From a bacterium (lineage in GTDB: Bacteria > SZUA-79 > Acidulodesulfobacterales > Acidulodesulfobacteraceae), in assembly GCA_021799935.1 (NCBI GenBank), contig JAJYZM010000026.1:1-8980 (forward strand): a stretch of DNA of 8,980 nucleotides. Direction: 5' to 3'. Position 1 is the stretch's first letter. The number at the start of each line of letters is the position of its first letter. The position numbers were made by a program, and so were the translations under genes. Positions 1-8,980 of this stretch are shown here, one piece after another. A model generated the notes under the pieces. The model did not search any database, was not told where the DNA came from, and worked only from the letters and a program-made list of their open reading frames with translations.

Positions 1-1405
1 GGCCGAATACGCCGAATTTACTGTTTGGAATATTATAGTATCCGAATGCGTCGTAGCCATGTTCCGTGTTGTGCTGATATTTAATTAATGTTCCCAAACT
101 TCCTATGAAAGGCGGATAACTAGCGCCATTCGCATTACATACATAAGCGTATGAAGGACTTAATCCGCAAAAGCTTCCCGCATCCTGGCTTATAGAACCT
201 GCGCCGCTTGCGTAACCGCCCGATAAAGCATTTAAGCCGTAGTCTAACTGTAAAGCTATTAATCCCTGAGGATTTTTATAATCGAGTATTGCGGACATTC
301 TCGTAGTAGGATTATCATTTACGCTGTTACCACCAACGCCAGGGTTAAAATCTCCCTCAAAATTATTCGATTGCGACCATGCGTAGTATCCGCTTACGCC
401 GAGGCCGTCAAGATTTGAATCCGCCCCCATTGGATAAAAAGATACTCTTGCCTGAGGCGATTTCTGGTCAACGTCTTCGCCCTGATGGAAGGTTGCGTTA
501 TCAAAAAAACCTGCGTTATAAGCCATATAGATTTTTCCGTTCGCCCTGAACTTACCGGATACGCCGAGACCCGCCTGAGTAGAAGTTACTCCGAGAAAAC
601 CCCACGGGGTTCTTTCCGCGACGTGATAACCCAATAAGCCGTCTTCCCATGCTACCATCGGGGTAGGAAACTGGCCCGCTTTAATGTTTACGGTTAAGCC
701 GTTAGCGTCGTAAACATGGTTAAACTGCAAGAATGCGTACTTAAGCCTGAAATACTCATTGCCGAATGTGGTGCCGGACGAAGAAAGCCATGATGTAGTT
801 GTTCCGGTGCCTGTTCCGTTGCCATACCAATTATTGGTTGTTGTTGTTCCGTTATAATTATTCGACTTATTAATGTTAGGCGTGAGTTTTAAGAACCAGT
901 TGTCCTGATGGTATAAAAATATCAAATACGCCCTGTTCACGTTAAAAGCGTTATAGCCGTTGTTTCCAGGACCCGCCGGATTTTCCTGAAGCTGTAACGC
1001 CGGAGCAAAACCGGTATTAGTGTAATACCCGTAACCCATATAAACCAACGTGCCCAAAGTAATATGTTTCGTCCACGCCGGAAGGGTTTGGCCTTTAACG
1101 GTTTTTAACGAAGCCTCTAGTTTCTTTTCAGTAGCTTTTAAATTCTTAATCTGCTCCGTCGTCTTTTTTGCGTTCGGTTTTAACAGCTGATTAATAACGC
1201 TCTGTCCTACTTCTACTCTTCCCTGTCCAGGCGTTAAAAATATCTCGCCGGTGTTGGGGTTTTCGTAAAGGGCGGCTCCCGATGCGTAAGCCTTCCCTGC
1301 CCCGCTGAACGCAAAGACTAATGCCAGAACTGCGGCCGTTGCAAATATAAATGCCGGCAGCATATTCAATCGCATCGTCTTTTTTGTCTTGTTAATTTCG
1401 CACAT
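1..1405 (-). CDS. Outer-membrane porin, C-terminus cut by window edge
   Basis: An open frame runs from an ATG at 1405 to the window edge, giving 468 codons without a stop. A strong ribosome binding site (GAGGAGG, 1411-1417) lies 5 bases before the ATG. Residues 1-41 form a Sec signal peptide: a basic start, a hydrophobic core near 16-34 and an AYA|S cleavage site. Residues about 75-105 are Lys-rich and helical (KNLKATEKKLEASLKTVKG), a likely periplasmic or trimerisation segment. From about 115 the chain has alternating aromatic and polar residues and Gly/Asn-rich loops typical of beta-barrel strands, including FRLKYAFLQF and VNIKAGQFPTPMVAWEDGLL. The R-x-KYA-x(n)-AGQ-P-P pattern resembles OprO/OprP- or DcaP-like porins. 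The fold is clear but the substrate is not. The neighbouring norZ runs in the same direction but has its own terminator, so this gene should have its own promoter. Confidence 0.85.
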   Translation of the reverse strand, partial: MCEINKTKKTMRLNMLPAFIFATAAVLALVFAFSGAGKAYASGAALYENPNTGEIFLTPGQGRVEVGQSVINQLLKPNAKKTTEQIKNLKATEKKLEASLKTVKGQTLPAWTKHITLGTLVYMGYGYYTNTGFAPALQLQENPAGPGNNGYNAFNVNRAYLIFLYHQDNWFLKLTPNINKSNNYNGTTTTNNWYGNGTGTGTTTSWLSSSGTTFGNEYFRLKYAFLQFNHVYDANGLTVNIKAGQFPTPMVAWEDGLLGYHVAERTPWGFLGVTSTQAGLGVSGKFRANGKIYMAYNAGFFDNATFHQGEDVDQKSPQARVSFYPMGADSNLDGLGVSGYYAWSQSNNFEGDFNPGVGGNSVNDNPTTRMSAILDYKNPQGLIALQLDYGLNALSGGYASGAGSISQDAGSFCGLSPSYAYVCNANGASYPPFIGSLGTLIKYQHNTEHGYDAFGYYNIPNSKFGVFG

Positions 1406-1523
1406 AACTTCCTCCTCTCTTTTAGTTTGGTTTGCTTTATTTATATATTTATATAAGTTAAGGCAAGCAAAATATAAACAATAATCCAAAAATTTACTTA
1501 TAATATATTAGACTATTCCTTTA

Positions 1524-4351: not shown

Positions 4352-4820
4352 TTAAATATTTTCACTCCTTTTATCGTCGTTTGCTTTTTTATTTTTCATT
4401 TTATTTTGAATATCCTGCGCCTTTTTTAATTCCGCCGTTATGATTTTTCTGTCTTCTCTGTTTAAATGGTTGAACAATAATACAAAATACATTGTTCCGG
4501 TAGGATTTTTCAGGAAACCGTTTACGTTCTCCTTGTAAACTTTTTTTACGTCGGAATAGGCGCCTGAAAGGTCTTGGCCGACATGCCCTCCCTTAACATC
4601 TAATGCTCTTATATTATGGCATCTGACGCACCCTAATTTATAAAATATCTTTTTTTCCTGCCGGAGCGATAACTTTTTTAGAATTTAATCCGATTCCGTC
4701 GGATGTCCTCAAAGAATAATATAATTCTATAAAAGACAGCGAAATGATAATAATCAATCCTGCTATTGCAGGCGCCCATACCGCCATAAATCTTTTGTCG
4801 AATTTCGGTAGAATCGCCAT
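4352..4820 (-). pseudogene. Membrane-anchored monoheme cytochrome c, frame broken at an A7 run
   Basis: The frame from the ATG at 4820 encodes 60 residues with one transmembrane anchor (about 13-35) and stops at 4638. The second part lies in another frame and runs to a stop at 4352-4354. It holds a heme c site CVRCH (4616-4630), then GGHVGQDLSGAY and a likely axial Met in NPTGTM. In the second frame a TAA lies shortly before the heme motif with no ATG, GTG or TTG between, so the heme domain cannot start by itself. Dropping one base from the seven-A run (4656-4650) joins them as PAGKKIFYKLGCVRCH, giving about 155 residues, close to the size of NorC-type anchored cytochromes. The C-terminus is rich in Lys and Asn. 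It precedes norZ and could pass electrons to a reductase, although qNor does not require a cytochrome. No clear ribosome binding site precedes 4820. Sequencing error, true mutation and slippage on the A run all remain possible. Confidence 0.75.
4650..4656 (-). other. Seven-A homopolymer at the cytochrome frameshift
   Basis: This is the only place where losing one base reconnects the transmembrane anchor to the CVRCH heme domain with a natural sequence (GKKIFYKLGC). Homopolymers of this length are sites of sequencing indels, phase variation and polymerase slippage. Confidence 0.65.
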
Positions 4821-5039: not shown

Positions 5040-5723
5040 ATGGAAACCGATGAGGATATTTTACTTTTAAAGAGCGTAGGCGAAATTGCTACGGAAAATC
5101 CGGAAAAAATCGGGGTATTTAAAAAATACGGCGTGGATTTTTGCTGCGGCGGTTCAAAAACGTTAAAAGATGTATGCGAAGAATCCGGCATAGACCGGCT
5201 GCTAATAGTCGATGAATTAAAAAGTCCTTCGGCGGTGGAAAACGACGATAATTACTCGTTAAGTAAAAAAGCGAACGACTGGGACGTTAATTTTTTAATA
5301 GACTATATAGTTAATATACACCATACGTTTTTACGGGTTCATATTCCGGAGGCCGAAGGTTATGTCGAAAAAATTGCAAACGTCCACGGAAAGGGACACC
5401 CGGAACTCCTTAAAATAAGGGAGCTTTTTACTAAAATGTCGCAGGCTATGTTCCTTCATTTAGACAAAGAAGAAGAAGGGCTCCTGAGCGATATAAAAGC
5501 CGGAAAAACCGAAAACATAAAACAAGAAATTGAAGATGCGCTGTATTACCATGAATACGTAGGGCATATTCTGAAAGAGATGCTTTTTTTAAGCTCCGGC
5601 TATTCGGTTCCTAAAGACGCCTGCGCTTCTTATAAGCATGCATACGAACTGCTGAAGAATATTTCAGACGATATAATGATTCACGTTCACATGGAAAACA
5701 ATATTCTTTTTAAAAAAATCTAA
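5040..5723 (+). CDS. ric: RIC (YtfE/ScdA) di-iron iron-sulfur cluster repair protein
   Basis: This 227-residue cytoplasmic protein repairs iron-sulfur clusters damaged by NO or oxidants; in the family a non-heme di-iron centre is the active site. AGAGGAG (5025-5031) lies 8 bases before the ATG. Residues about 10-60 are the ScdA_N domain with the hallmark GVFKKYGVDFCCGG (Cys35-Cys36). Residues about 80-227 are a hemerythrin-like four-helix bundle. Likely iron ligands are His94 or His95, His140 with Glu144 (HLDKE), His171 and His215 with Glu219 (HVHMENN), matching the spacing of E. coli YtfE His129/Glu133 and His204/Glu208. The length is close to the usual 220. It is divergent from cytochrome c-norZ and shares a symmetrical Crp/Fnr-type control region with them, so NO control is likely. 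It converges on rrf2 with 9 bases between the stop codons. Confidence 0.95.
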   Translation: METDEDILLLKSVGEIATENPEKIGVFKKYGVDFCCGGSKTLKDVCEESGIDRLLIVDELKSPSAVENDDNYSLSKKANDWDVNFLIDYIVNIHHTFLRVHIPEAEGYVEKIANVHGKGHPELLKIRELFTKMSQAMFLHLDKEEEGLLSDIKAGKTENIKQEIEDALYYHEYVGHILKEMLFLSSGYSVPKDACASYKHAYELLKNISDDIMIHVHMENNILFKKI

Positions 5724-5732
5724 GCGCCTTTT

Positions 5733-6167
5733 TTATTGCACGGCTTCCGGTAACATATTCCCTTTTTTATCGGCTGCAAAATCGGCGATGGAATAAGAGC
5801 TTAGGGCTTTCGTCAGCATTTTTTGAATATCGAGCCACATAAAATGCACGTCGCAATTGCCTACGTTCCGGCAGGAAGATTTATTAACCACGCATCTGTT
5901 CAGAACGATAGGCCCGTCTATAATTTCTACCACCATTTTTATTGTAATATCCTCGGGGCGGGCGTTAAACGTAAATCCGCCTTTAGTTCCGATAAAAGAA
6001 TGGACAAGACCGCTTTTAGCGAGCGTTTGAAATATTTTCGACATAAAAGAAGCCGGCGAATTCGTGTTTTTAGCTATATCTTTTACGAAACATACCGCCC
6101 CTGCAGGCTTTTTTGCCATATATACCAGTCCCCGTATCGCGTAATCGCTGGCTCTTGAAATATTCAT
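5733..6167 (-). CDS. Rrf2-family transcriptional regulator, probable Fe-S sensor
   Basis: This 144-residue winged-helix regulator belongs to the Rrf2 family (IscR, NsrR, RsrR). The start at 6167 has AGAGGTG just upstream. The N-terminal opening (SRASDYAIRGLVYMA), the recognition-helix region (SPASFMSKIFQTLAKSGLV) and the wing (GTKGGF) are typical. Cys92, Cys99 and Cys105 are the expected cluster ligands, but the spacing is C-x6-C-x5-C, one residue longer between the first two than the x5/x5 of IscR. Asp8 (fourth ligand in some NsrR proteins) and His108 (at the position of the IscR His ligand) are both present. The NO-defence neighbours favour an NO or cluster-status sensor, but NsrR cannot be told from IscR-like by reading alone. 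A near-perfect palindrome overlaps its own promoter, suggesting autoregulation. Confidence 0.9.
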   Translation of the reverse strand: MNISRASDYAIRGLVYMAKKPAGAVCFVKDIAKNTNSPASFMSKIFQTLAKSGLVHSFIGTKGGFTFNARPEDITIKMVVEIIDGPIVLNRCVVNKSSCRNVGNCDVHFMWLDIQKMLTKALSSYSIADFAADKKGNMLPEAVQ

Positions 6168-6184
6168 ATAAACACCTCTAATTG

Positions 6185-6199
6185 AGATAAAATTTGTCT
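6185..6199. promoter_or_regulatory. Candidate Rrf2 operator
   Basis: A 15-bp near-perfect palindrome, AGATAAA-A-TTTGTCT, has one mismatched pair. It lies 18 bases before the rrf2 ATG and overlaps the predicted -10 and start point. Similar half-sites, AAGACATATTT (6248-6258) and AAGATATACTT (6277-6287), flank or overlap the promoter of the divergent gene, so one regulator may control both. Confidence 0.45.
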
Positions 6200-6226
6200 T
6201 ATATTTTATTATATATTAAACGGCAA
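6198..6226 (-). promoter_or_regulatory. Putative rrf2 promoter
   Basis: On the minus strand TTGCCG (6226-6221) is followed after 17 bases by TATAAG (6203-6198). The -35 box lies inside the first copy of the 35-bp direct repeat. In AT-rich DNA other -10-like hexamers are available (TATAAT at 6213-6208), so this is tentative. Confidence 0.4.
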
Positions 6227-6250
6227 AAAAATGCCCTATAAAAAATTAAG
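6216..6250. repeat. 35-bp direct repeat, copy 1
   Basis: Identical over 35 bases to 8148-8182 and in the same orientation. It starts TTAAACGGCA and ends AAAAATTAAG. Copy 2 forms one arm and the T tract of the cydB terminator; copy 1 has no partner arm and so is half of that structure. The two copies bracket the Gln/Asn repeat gene and the beta-barrel gene. Confidence 0.9.
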
Positions 6251-6257
6251 ACATATT

Positions 6258-6286
6258 TTGACTTATTTTTATTATTAAGATATACT
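6258..6286 (+). promoter_or_regulatory. Sigma-70-like promoter of the Gln/Asn repeat gene
   Basis: TTGACT (6258-6263) and TATACT (6281-6286) are separated by exactly 17 bases, giving a start near 6293. Each hexamer differs from consensus at one position, so this is the strongest sigma-70 promoter in the window. Confidence 0.65.
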
Positions 6287-6350
6287 TTAATCAAAAAGTA
6301 TAATTATAATAAGCAGTTAATTTAAAATGGAAAATCGGAGGAAAAAGATT

Positions 6351-7142
6351 ATGAAAACGAAGGTGAACGCTAAAACATTTCTAGCTATAACGGTTTTTAA
6401 TGTTTTGGCCGTATCTATTATGGTTATTATGGGAATCGCTTTTACGGGAAATTCGTCTTACGGCGCAGCGGCAAAAATATCGCAGAAAGATGCAGAATTG
6501 ATTAAGGTCTATGTCAAAATCCTTAACAAAGTCGGCAATAACAAAAAGGTTTACCCCGCTATTGAAAAAAATCTCGGCATCACACAATCGGCTTTGAATA
6601 ATTATATGAACAAAAGCGCGAGCTTAGGTGATGCTGTTTTTTTAAAAATAATTGAAAAAAATGCCGTTAATCAGACGGAAGTAGAAAACTTTGTCAATAA
6701 GTATTCGGCGAACAAGAATATGATTGGACAACTCAACGACAACAGCTTTAATGTAAAAAATGTAATAAAGGAAATGAATAACGTCGTTAAATTAAAAGTC
6801 GTAAACGAGGTCTATAGAACTGCAACCGGCGTCAGTGTTGACCATGAATTAAGTCTCGCCGTCAATACTCCAAATAACTCGCATAACTTAACCGTAAAAA
6901 ACTATATGACCAACCAAACCGGCAACGTTTATCAAAATCATGAAATAATCAACCAAACACAAAATACCAACAAAAATATCCAGCAGATAAATTCCAATCA
7001 GCAGCAGTTGGAACAGATTAATAATACACAAAGGCAAATAAACCAGGTAAATAATACTCAGCGGCAGCTTCAGCAGATAAACAATACCCAGCAACAATTA
7101 CAGCAGATTAATAATACTCAACGACAGATGATGGGAAGATAA
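6351..7142 (+). CDS. Exported protein with C-terminal Gln/Asn decapeptide repeats
   Basis: I do not recognise the family. GGAGG (6337-6341) lies 9 bases before the ATG at 6351; the in-frame ATG at 6327 has no such site, so the product is taken as 263 residues. Residues 1-40 are a signal peptide (basic start, hydrophobic 10-31, likely cleavage after SYG or nearby). Residues about 42-165 are probably helical with alternating Lys/Asn and Val/Ile and no cysteine or catalytic motif. Residues 166-210 are Asn/Thr-rich. Residues 211-260 are five in-register decapeptides with consensus QQINNTQRQL, hydrophobic at positions 3 and 10, ending MMGR. The mature protein is therefore periplasmic, surface or secreted. 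The beta-barrel gene follows after 142 bases with a terminator between. A fibre, adhesin or amyloid-like subunit is a reasonable guess but not shown; a coiled coil is the main alternative. Confidence 0.8.
   Translation: MKTKVNAKTFLAITVFNVLAVSIMVIMGIAFTGNSSYGAAAKISQKDAELIKVYVKILNKVGNNKKVYPAIEKNLGITQSALNNYMNKSASLGDAVFLKIIEKNAVNQTEVENFVNKYSANKNMIGQLNDNSFNVKNVIKEMNNVVKLKVVNEVYRTATGVSVDHELSLAVNTPNNSHNLTVKNYMTNQTGNVYQNHEIINQTQNTNKNIQQINSNQQQLEQINNTQRQINQVNNTQRQLQQINNTQQQLQQINNTQRQMMGR
6981..7130 (+). repeat. Five tandem 30-bp coding repeats (decapeptide array)
   Basis: Units begin at 6981, 7011, 7041, 7071 and 7101. They encode QQINSNQQQL, EQINNTQRQI, NQVNNTQRQL, QQINNTQQQL and QQINNTQRQM. Codons vary between units (CAG/CAA, AAC/AAT, AGG/CGG/CGA, TTG/CTT/TTA) while the residues are held, so the array is old and appears maintained at protein level. 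Confidence 0.9.
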
Positions 7143-7159
7143 ACATTAATAAAATTGCG

Positions 7160-7218
7160 CAAGCCGATTATTTAAATCGATTTTTATAATCTTTAGATTT
7201 TTGGCTTGCATTTTTTTT
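7160..7218 (+). terminator. Intrinsic terminator after the Gln/Asn repeat gene
   Basis: Arms GCAAGCC (7160-7166) and GGCTTGC (7203-7209) are perfect. The AT-rich loop of 36 bases can itself fold (AAATCGATTT inside). Eight T follow at 7211-7218. It starts 17 bases after the stop codon. The long loop may make it leaky, allowing some read-through into the beta-barrel gene. Confidence 0.7.
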
Positions 7219-7284
7219 ATTAAATTTTAATTATTTATATAGTTAAATAATTTAATCGATAATTCATAAAAAGGAAGCGCTTAT

Positions 7285-8097
7285 ATGGCAAAAAACATCA
7301 TTAAAGCAAGATATATAACATTTTTTTTAATAATTTTTTCTTTAACGTTCGTTTATATACCCAAATCATTCGGCTCTTCAAAGATACAGACCGGAATCGG
7401 TTATAATGAAACATGGGGGAATTACGGCACAAATTATACGACATCCTTGATATATATACCGTTGAATATAAATTATTACCCGAATAGCACTTTTAATTTC
7501 TCGGCGACAATCCCTTATGAGGATGTCAGTAAACCTGCATCTGCAACATTAATTAACGGAGTGCCTGTTCAAAGAGGCGGCGTTTCGTCAAGCGCGACTA
7601 CGACGGAAAGCGGTTTGGGAGACATTGTGTTGACAGGAAATTATAATATTATAAATCAGCTTAATAACCATTCCCTTCCGACCTTAACCGCAACGGCCTT
7701 CGTTGATTTACCGACCGCAAGCGAGTCGAAAGGTTTAGGAACGGGACAAACAAATTTCGGCTTCAACTTAGGATTAACCCAATTAATTAAATCATATTTC
7801 TATTTTATTAACGGCGGTTATACTGTTTTAGGCAAACCGTCAGGCGTTAACGGATTGTCTAATCCTTTGTCGGCTTACGCCGGCGCCGGTAAATTAGTTA
7901 CAAATAATTTATCTTTTGCTGTTTCAGGCGCATGGACACAGGCTTTTATTTCCGGCACCCATGATACTGTCACAGGAAATTTATCGTTAATTTATACCGT
8001 TGTAAAAAATAATACAATCGGGGTAACTTATATAAAGGGTTTTACAAACGAAAGTCCGTCCGAGGGAATTATGTTAAATTATACATTAGGGTTTTAA
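7285..8097 (+). CDS. Outer-membrane beta-barrel protein (Phenol_MetA_deg-like transporter family)
   Basis: A 270-residue protein starting at 7285, with AAGGAAG (7271-7277) upstream. Residues 1-30 form a signal peptide (hydrophobic 12-25, likely cleavage after SFG). The rest is alternating hydrophobic and polar strands with Gly/Asn/Ser turns, about 10-12 strands by eye, ending in LNYTLGF with the C-terminal Phe used for outer-membrane insertion. The segments ESGLGDIVLTGNYNI, TATAFVDLPTASESKG and TNFGFNLGLTQLI match the style of the broad 'MetA-pathway of phenol degradation' barrel family (PF13557), recalled from memory. That family name does not imply phenol metabolism. The gene lies between the Gln/Asn repeat gene and the cydB terminator. 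It may export or anchor the repeat protein, or be an unrelated small-solute channel. No cysteines are present. Confidence 0.75.
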   Translation: MAKNIIKARYITFFLIIFSLTFVYIPKSFGSSKIQTGIGYNETWGNYGTNYTTSLIYIPLNINYYPNSTFNFSATIPYEDVSKPASATLINGVPVQRGGVSSSATTTESGLGDIVLTGNYNIINQLNNHSLPTLTATAFVDLPTASESKGLGTGQTNFGFNLGLTQLIKSYFYFINGGYTVLGKPSGVNGLSNPLSAYAGAGKLVTNNLSFAVSGAWTQAFISGTHDTVTGNLSLIYTVVKNNTIGVTYIKGFTNESPSEGIMLNYTLGF

Positions 8098-8130
8098 AAT
8101 CTTACAAAAATTTTGAAAAAAACATATTAA

Positions 8131-8152
8131 TTTAAGCCAAGCTTGATTTAAA
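8131..8152. repeat. 22-bp imperfect palindrome around CAAGCTTG
   Basis: TTTAA and TTAAA ends flank a perfect CAAGCTTG core; the two bases between on each side do not pair. It overlaps the first bases of the second 35-bp repeat copy. It has no T tract and lies between convergent genes, so its role is unclear. Confidence 0.35.
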
Positions 8153-8182
8153 CGGCAAAAAAATGCCCTATAAAAAATTAAG
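8148..8182. repeat. 35-bp direct repeat, copy 2
   Basis: Exact match to 6216-6250, offset 1,932 bp; the flanking bases differ on both sides (A/T before, A/G after). Here the repeat carries one arm, part of the loop and the T tract of the complete cydB terminator. Confidence 0.9.
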
Positions 8183-8207
8183 GGGGGTTAATTTAATTAT
8201 AGGGCAT
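8157..8207 (-). terminator. Intrinsic terminator of cydB
   Basis: On the minus strand the arms ATGCCCTATA and TATAGGGCAT (outer ends at 8207 and 8163) pair perfectly, with further AT-rich pairing inward (ATTAA/TTAAT) around a loop of six C. Seven T follow (8163-8157). It begins 37 bases after the cydB stop. On the plus strand no T tract follows, so it would end beta-barrel transcripts poorly. Confidence 0.85.
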
Positions 8208-8243
8208 CGGATAAAGGTCAAAACAAAATCGAGAAGAAATAAA

Positions 8244-8980
8244 TTAATAACTGCTTTCGTCCATTTTTACCTTTAATCCGAACTTTTTATACGCGTAAAT
8301 TGCATATATTAAAACCAACGGCAGGCCTATAAGGGTCGCTATCAGCATAACTAAAAGCGTTAGATGATTAGAAGCGGAATTATATATGTTTAAACTGTAT
8401 TCAGGATTAATTGAAGAAGGTACGATATCGGGAAATACCCCGACCGCCAGACTTGCGACCGCTCCAAGAATGCCTGCTATAGAATAGGCGAACGGTTTAA
8501 CGTCGCTCGAAGACCCCGCAGTTAAAATAGCGCCTATCCCGCCGATAAGCATTATAACCGGAACAATATCCCCTATAATGCCGAAGCTGTTGTTTAGAAG
8601 CCTCGGCGCAAATATCGGAGAAATCAGTAAAAACAGCAGGGTAAATACTATATACGCCACTGCAAACCATTTTGCAAAAACTCTTGCCCTTTGCTGGACT
8701 TCCCCTTCTGTCTTCATAATCAAATAAGCCGAGCCGTGCATTAAAAACATCGACAGCGATACAAGCCCTCCTGCTAATCCGAAAATATTTAAAAGGCTGA
8801 ACAGGGACTGGTAATCGACGTGGTCTTTATTAAGCGGTACGCCCATTAAGACATTTGCGATAGCCACGCCGAGCAGGAGAGCGATGCCTAAGCCGGTAAC
8901 CGTAATATCGGCATCCCAAAACTTCCTCCAGCCTGCGCTTTCGACTTTGCTTCTGAACTCGAAAGATACAGCCCTGAATA
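8244..8980 (-). CDS. cydB: Cytochrome bd oxidase subunit II, start outside window
   Basis: The frame is open from the window edge at 8980 to a stop at 8244, giving 244 residues that correspond to the C-terminal two-thirds of a protein usually 340-380 long. The hallmark FRAVSFEFRSKVESAGWRKF lies at the beginning of the visible part and MKTEGEVQQRAR further on; both match CydB (E. coli has FEFRSKIENPKWRAMWD and MRTEGDLHERAR). About seven hydrophobic helices follow one another, as expected for this membrane subunit. With CydA it oxidises quinol and reduces oxygen to water with high affinity, and in other bacteria it is known to tolerate NO. cydA is expected just upstream, beyond the right edge. 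The C-terminus is short and basic, then acidic (KKFGLKVKMDESSY). Confidence 0.93.
   Translation of the reverse strand, partial: FRAVSFEFRSKVESAGWRKFWDADITVTGLGIALLLGVAIANVLMGVPLNKDHVDYQSLFSLLNIFGLAGGLVSLSMFLMHGSAYLIMKTEGEVQQRARVFAKWFAVAYIVFTLLFLLISPIFAPRLLNNSFGIIGDIVPVIMLIGGIGAILTAGSSSDVKPFAYSIAGILGAVASLAVGVFPDIVPSSINPEYSLNIYNSASNHLTLLVMLIATLIGLPLVLIYAIYAYKKFGLKVKMDESSY

Follow-up and report, generated by a model that had tools for sequence, protein, structure and literature searches.

The analysed window is a metagenome contig of 8,980 nucleotides (nt) from a member of the Acidulodesulfobacteraceae (assembly GCA_021799935.1, contig JAJYZM010000026.1, forward strand), whose closest named relatives are Candidatus (Ca.) Acidulodesulfobacterium sp. 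H_13 and unclassified Deltaproteobacteria. Its genes encode, in order, a porin-like protein (-), a nitric oxide reductase (-), a broken cytochrome-like protein (-), ScdA/RIC (+), an Rrf2 regulator (-), a repeat protein (+), an outer-membrane barrel (+) and CydB (-). The adjacent repeat-protein and barrel genes, which evolve and move as one unit, are the subject of this analysis (Table 1).

Table 1. Positions of the two-gene unit and its features in the window
Feature	Position	Strand	Remarks
35-nt exact direct repeat, left copy	6216..6250	.	flanks the inserted pair
Inserted gene pair with one copy of the repeat	6251..8182	+	1932 nt from repeat to repeat; defined by empty sites of relatives
Repeat protein gene	6351..7142	+	263 amino acids; orphan family
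Signal peptide region	6351..6467	+	approximately residues 1-39; basic start, hydrophobic stretch, YGA site; read by eye
N-terminal helical domain	6483..6788	+	residues 45-146; AlphaFold2
Predicted beta meander, low confidence	6834..6956	+	residues 162-202; AlphaFold2
Five Gln/Asn decapeptides plus MGR	6981..7139	+	residues 211-263
Intergenic hairpin with T-run	7159..7218	+	possible attenuator
Outer-membrane barrel gene	7285..8097	+	270 amino acids; predicted FapF/COG4313-like fold
Barrel signal peptide	7285..7377	+	approximately residues 1-31; read by eye; strand 1 from residue 34 in the model
35-nt exact direct repeat, right copy	8148..8182	.	belongs to the native site preceding cydB

The repeat protein and the barrel

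An initial annotation of this DNA had described an exported protein with five in-register Gln/Asn decapeptides followed by a signal-bearing barrel, and both open reading frames were recovered as described. The start ATG of the repeat protein (position 6351) is preceded by GGAGGAAAAAG, and a second in-frame ATG lies at 6327. The units of the array are QQINSNQQQL, EQINNTQRQI, NQVNNTQRQL, QQINNTQQQL and QQINNTQRQM, followed by MGR; the underlying DNA has a period of 30, and the identity at a lag of 10 in the last 60 residues was 27/50, compared with 9.5 on average and at most 19 in 10,000 shuffles. A pattern search across 17 clusters of homologues, the window's included, retrieved 90 units (3 to 8 per protein, spacing always 10), so that copy number is variable and spacing constant. 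The unit can be written [QN]Q[VMTI]NN[TM]Q[QR]Q[MI], the constancy at positions 7 and 9 being partly built in, since the pattern demanded Q at the former and Q or E at the latter. A C-terminal MMGR was present in 14 of the 17 clusters.

These 17 clusters were the only homologues detected among 5.8 billion proteins, and a profile search from their 17-row alignment returned the same clusters and nothing further at E 0.1; all those with an organism name belonged to this group or to unclassified Deltaproteobacteria. No Pfam or NCBIfam family scored above the cut-off, no relatives were seen in a scan of viral contigs, and a PHROGs search gave nothing below E 0.03. Fold comparison against the PDB gave no convincing match, its rows covering mainly residues 145-228 and barely the N-terminal domain, for which the AlphaFold2 block means of the predicted local distance difference test (pLDDT) were 65-86 (residues 41-140) and 56 (residues 141-150). 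Judged by its sequence, and within the reach of these searches, the repeat protein forms an orphan family confined to 17 clusters.

The barrel was modelled by AlphaFold2 with a mean pLDDT of 88 and 12 predicted strands. Its best structural match was FapF, the amyloid exporter of Pseudomonas, and the second a COG4313 solute channel. The assignment to PF13557 held for the wider family only: 17 of the 37 proteins in the barrel alignment matched it at E 0.1 or better (37 of the 39 homologues found, two short ones, P0026 and P0035, being excluded), whereas the window's own protein matched no Pfam family up to E 1. In the model, strand 1 begins at residue 34, directly after the signal peptide, leaving no FapF-type N-terminal coiled coil; no helix of at least 4 residues was found apart from the signal peptide, hence no plug; and only about 3 residues separate the presumed cleavage site from strand 1, hence no lumen-blocking N-terminal segment. 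R157, a lumen residue of FapF needed for secretion (numbering derived from the PTG motif), aligns to N63 of the barrel in a low-scoring profile alignment, and a PTA motif sits where the COG4313 channel has PTG.

Both genes are under purifying selection. For the barrel, nonsynonymous divergence (dN) was 0.018-0.049 and synonymous divergence (dS) 0.09-0.54 in 10 comparisons among five genomes. In the array, dS was finite in 9 of 15 comparisons and saturated in 6, far above the remainder of the repeat gene; the units were probably misaligned, with no one-to-one match, and for this reason the array dN/dS was left unused.

A hairpin followed by a T-run separates the two genes in 8/8 loci (z = -3.9 to -5.6 against mononucleotide shuffles). 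When the window was folded together with shorter stretches of three relatives, z was -5.2 for the window and only -1.6, -0.1 and -2.1 for the relatives, because their stretches started within the 5' arm or at its border. In an alignment of seven sequences, 98.6% of the cells pair in a 10-pair stem and two of the ten pairs are changed on both sides; the paired percentage was reached by 10 of 500 shuffles and the number of double changes by 19 of 500, making the covariation modest. A simple terminator scan (5700-8300) reported no terminator-like site; its loops were limited to 3-8, and the arm-to-arm distance of this hairpin is long.

Joint occurrence and transfer of the two genes

The repeat protein was found in 8 of 30 genomes of the phylum and the barrel in the identical eight, the genes being adjacent and on the same strand in 8/8 (in G002 the contig stops inside the barrel gene). 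These genomes are incomplete, RpoB being found in 21 of 30, so that absences are soft, and the adjacency count covers the eight carriers only. The neighbouring locus tags ACMCNP_00145 and ACMCNP_00150 of Ca. Acidulodesulfobacterium sp. H_13 agree with it. The proposed pairing, including co-occurrence as neighbours, was thus borne out.

The pair, of about 1.9 kb, occurs in four unrelated gene neighbourhoods: between Rrf2 and cydB (window and G001); beside genes that, from their sequence, we take to be of the efflux type (G002, G003 and G015); beside a gene for an NAD-dependent epimerase, together with presumably cobalamin-type genes (G004, G012 and G030); and, in G006, adjoining a PQQ-propeller protein, with what we assume to be HU/Clp genes on the other side. 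In G002 and G003, a gene for a small exported protein directly precedes the pair (L068 8906-9373, L069 5076-5570); the G002 copy of this protein had no Pfam match. In G012 the divergent upstream neighbour is a PAS-GGDEF-EAL protein (L065 4043-6799), a possible link to biofilm signalling in this one genome.

In the window, the pair sits between Rrf2 and cydB, bounded by two exact 35-nt copies of a direct repeat. In 14 of the 15 other genomes with the Rrf2 gene, this gene adjoins cydB without either gene of the pair, the exception being G004, whose locus shows no cydB. The closest empty sites are those of G020 (Rrf2 96%, CydB 97.6%) and G025 (Rrf2 96%, CydB 97%), two incomplete genomes in which neither gene of the pair was found anywhere. 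A 29-nt core of the repeat occurs twice in the window (0/200 shuffles) and twice in G001, and once each, with one mismatch, in G002, G003 and G015; it was not found in the remaining four cassette genomes, with up to three mismatches allowed.

Sequence identities of the pair depart from those of other genes. Between the window and G015, amino acid identity is 92% for Rrf2, 89% for CydB and 93% for ScdA, compared with 74% for the barrel and 56% for the repeat protein. Between G006 and G015, the repeat protein is 92% identical in amino acids and 91% in nucleotides, and the barrel 94% and 95%, whereas RpoB reaches only 75.2% and 71.5%; G006 and G003 share 92% identity across 1909 nt, corresponding to the cassette plus short flanks. 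The G006 copy lies on a 906-kb contig whose flank matches the related G007 (93% over 3691 nt, 95% over 2102 nt), which disfavours a binning error. The HU site spans 174 nt in G009, which lacks the pair there, and 2559 nt in G006; in G007, the nearest kin of G006 (RpoB 99% in amino acids), it offers no clean empty site. Sequences of about 100 nt between HU and the cassette of G006 (L063) recur many times across G005, G006, G007, G009 and G011, and represent a dispersed intergenic repeat family near this one insertion site.

On an RpoB tree of 21 genomes and six carriers (G001 and G004, also carriers, lack an RpoB row), the presence of the pair requires four changes, compared with a shuffled mean of 5.4, and 62 of 500 shuffles were equally low. 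The tree alone therefore shows neither clustering nor scatter, and the argument for transfer is drawn from sequence identity. The identity of the pair, far above that of RpoB, the four neighbourhoods, the empty sites of relatives and the flanking repeat together demonstrate that the two genes move as a unit. As possible hints at function, the nearby Rrf2 and nitric oxide genes were discounted, because the pair is an insertion there.

Comparison with known systems and candidate functions

The resemblance to the Fap system of Pseudomonas (exporter FapF, fibre protein FapC) proposed in the initial annotation held in part: a predicted 12-stranded FapF-like barrel, a Gln/Asn-repeat partner and closely placed genes. 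However, the barrel model lacks coiled coil and plug, the repeat unit has 10 residues and not the 39 of the Fap repeat, and the pair consists of two genes only, moving as a cassette. The Fap repeat expression X15GX4NX3GX6NX7, as given in PMC3792158, matched 0/17 homologues of the repeat protein, and a FapD-type C39 peptidase was found in 0/30 of these incomplete genomes, the control being found in 8/14. Since the barrel model shows neither coiled coil nor plug, and neither the FapC repeat nor, in the 30 genomes, a C39 protease was found, the pair is not a Fap system. In FapF homologues, according to PMC6173795, coiled-coil length and the number of Q-layers often correlate with the Q/N-rich repeats of the substrate.

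The COG4313/PF13557 channels (Pput2725, PDB 4rl8) resemble the barrel in fold and in carrying a PT motif at the corresponding position, but the barrel has an orphan repeat protein as partner and is modelled without the lumen-blocking N-terminal segment, a feature that PMC4493636 attributes to COG4313 channels. The GfcD/YjbH double barrels, whose N-terminal halves are matched to FapF in PMC9603273, likewise place a FapF-like barrel outside a fap operon; in those proteins it is fused to a second, polysaccharide-type barrel, whereas here a single barrel accompanies a repeat protein. Autotransporter translocators (NalP, EspP) differ in that their passenger is fused to the barrel and not encoded by a separate gene. 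Curli (CsgA/CsgG) resemble the pair in combining Gln/Asn-containing repeats with a dedicated pore, although that pore differs in type from the barrel; the curlin repeat motif matched 0/17 repeat-protein homologues. A limited literature search on FapF-like/PF13557 barrels and on amyloid in this bacterial group gave no description of such a pair.

We tentatively favour the reading that the two genes form a mobile cassette encoding a small outer-membrane system, in which the repeat protein is exported or displayed by the barrel; this is suggested by their strict pairing and joint transfer, by the Gln/Asn array and by the likeness of the barrel fold to FapF. Both proteins, with signal peptides read from the sequence, would reach the periplasm via Sec, and in the outer membrane the barrel would form a 12-stranded pore of the FapF/COG4313 type, without a plug. 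It may then pass its partner through or hold it, bringing the repeat protein to the cell surface or beyond it; there, the decad array could self-associate into a fibre or an adhesive stalk; the intergenic hairpin might keep the repeat protein in excess over the barrel. The initial annotation had suggested a minimal undescribed secretion or adhesion pair: the pair is real and mobile, and outer-membrane crossing and fibre formation are its conjectural part. A further proposal, rather unlikely in its entirety, is a minimal, horizontally mobile protein-export system of two genes that was derived from COG4313-type uptake channels independently of Fap. In it, the barrel is unplugged, and its substrate, the Gln/Asn decad protein of variable repeat number, would itself provide the gate or stalk in trans.

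The main rival, doubtful but live, makes the barrel a COG4313-type pore for uptake or efflux and confines the repeat protein to the periplasm, as a helper (carrier, scaffold or metal-stress protein). The COG4313 match of the model, the efflux-type neighbourhood in three genomes and distant barrel relatives on sphingomonad plasmids, beside which no repeat-protein partner was seen, speak most strongly for this; against it, FapF matches the barrel better and the four neighbourhoods have no evident common pathway. Metal binding through methionines was considered because of the efflux-type neighbourhood and set aside, since 4 of 17 repeat proteins, including that of the window, carry no MxxM motif in their last 90 residues, so that the motif is not the conserved feature.

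It is unlikely that the array acts as a gate in trans, as FapF's periplasmic Gln-rich coiled coil or plug split off into a separate protein while a different substrate is exported. This would account for a barrel model without either element and for an array modelled as a single 57-residue helix, and FapF coiled coils contain Q-layers, as reported in PMC6173795. However, the pLDDT of that helix is 32-47, and the hydrophobic positions recur every 10 residues with a 3-7 spacing and no heptads. The NNT of the unit also disfavours a helix. That the genes are chance neighbours without a common function, as a hairpin able to terminate transcription between them might suggest, is highly improbable given adjacency in 8/8 genomes, four unrelated neighbourhoods and joint horizontal transfer.

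Other genes of the window and significance

The small cytochrome c-like gene of the window (about 4370-4820, minus strand; CxxCH motif) is broken across two reading frames near an A-run, and a single-frame relative occurs in G026 (L086). The exported porin-like protein (2-1489, minus strand) has a Lys/Gln-rich, coiled-coil-like stretch near its N-terminus and no Pfam match; in G002 and G003, a relative is encoded close to the Rrf2 gene.

Members of the host order are known from acid-mine water, sediments and biofilms, as noted in PMC6776010, a habitat that fits a surface role of the pair without proving it. Should the barrel export its partner, the pair would be related to the amyloid exporter Fap but far smaller, and would illustrate how protein export can arise from a solute channel in the absence of plug, coiled coil and protease. 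The pair is a clear case of two co-moving envelope genes, and gives an uncultured acid-mine group a candidate surface structure.
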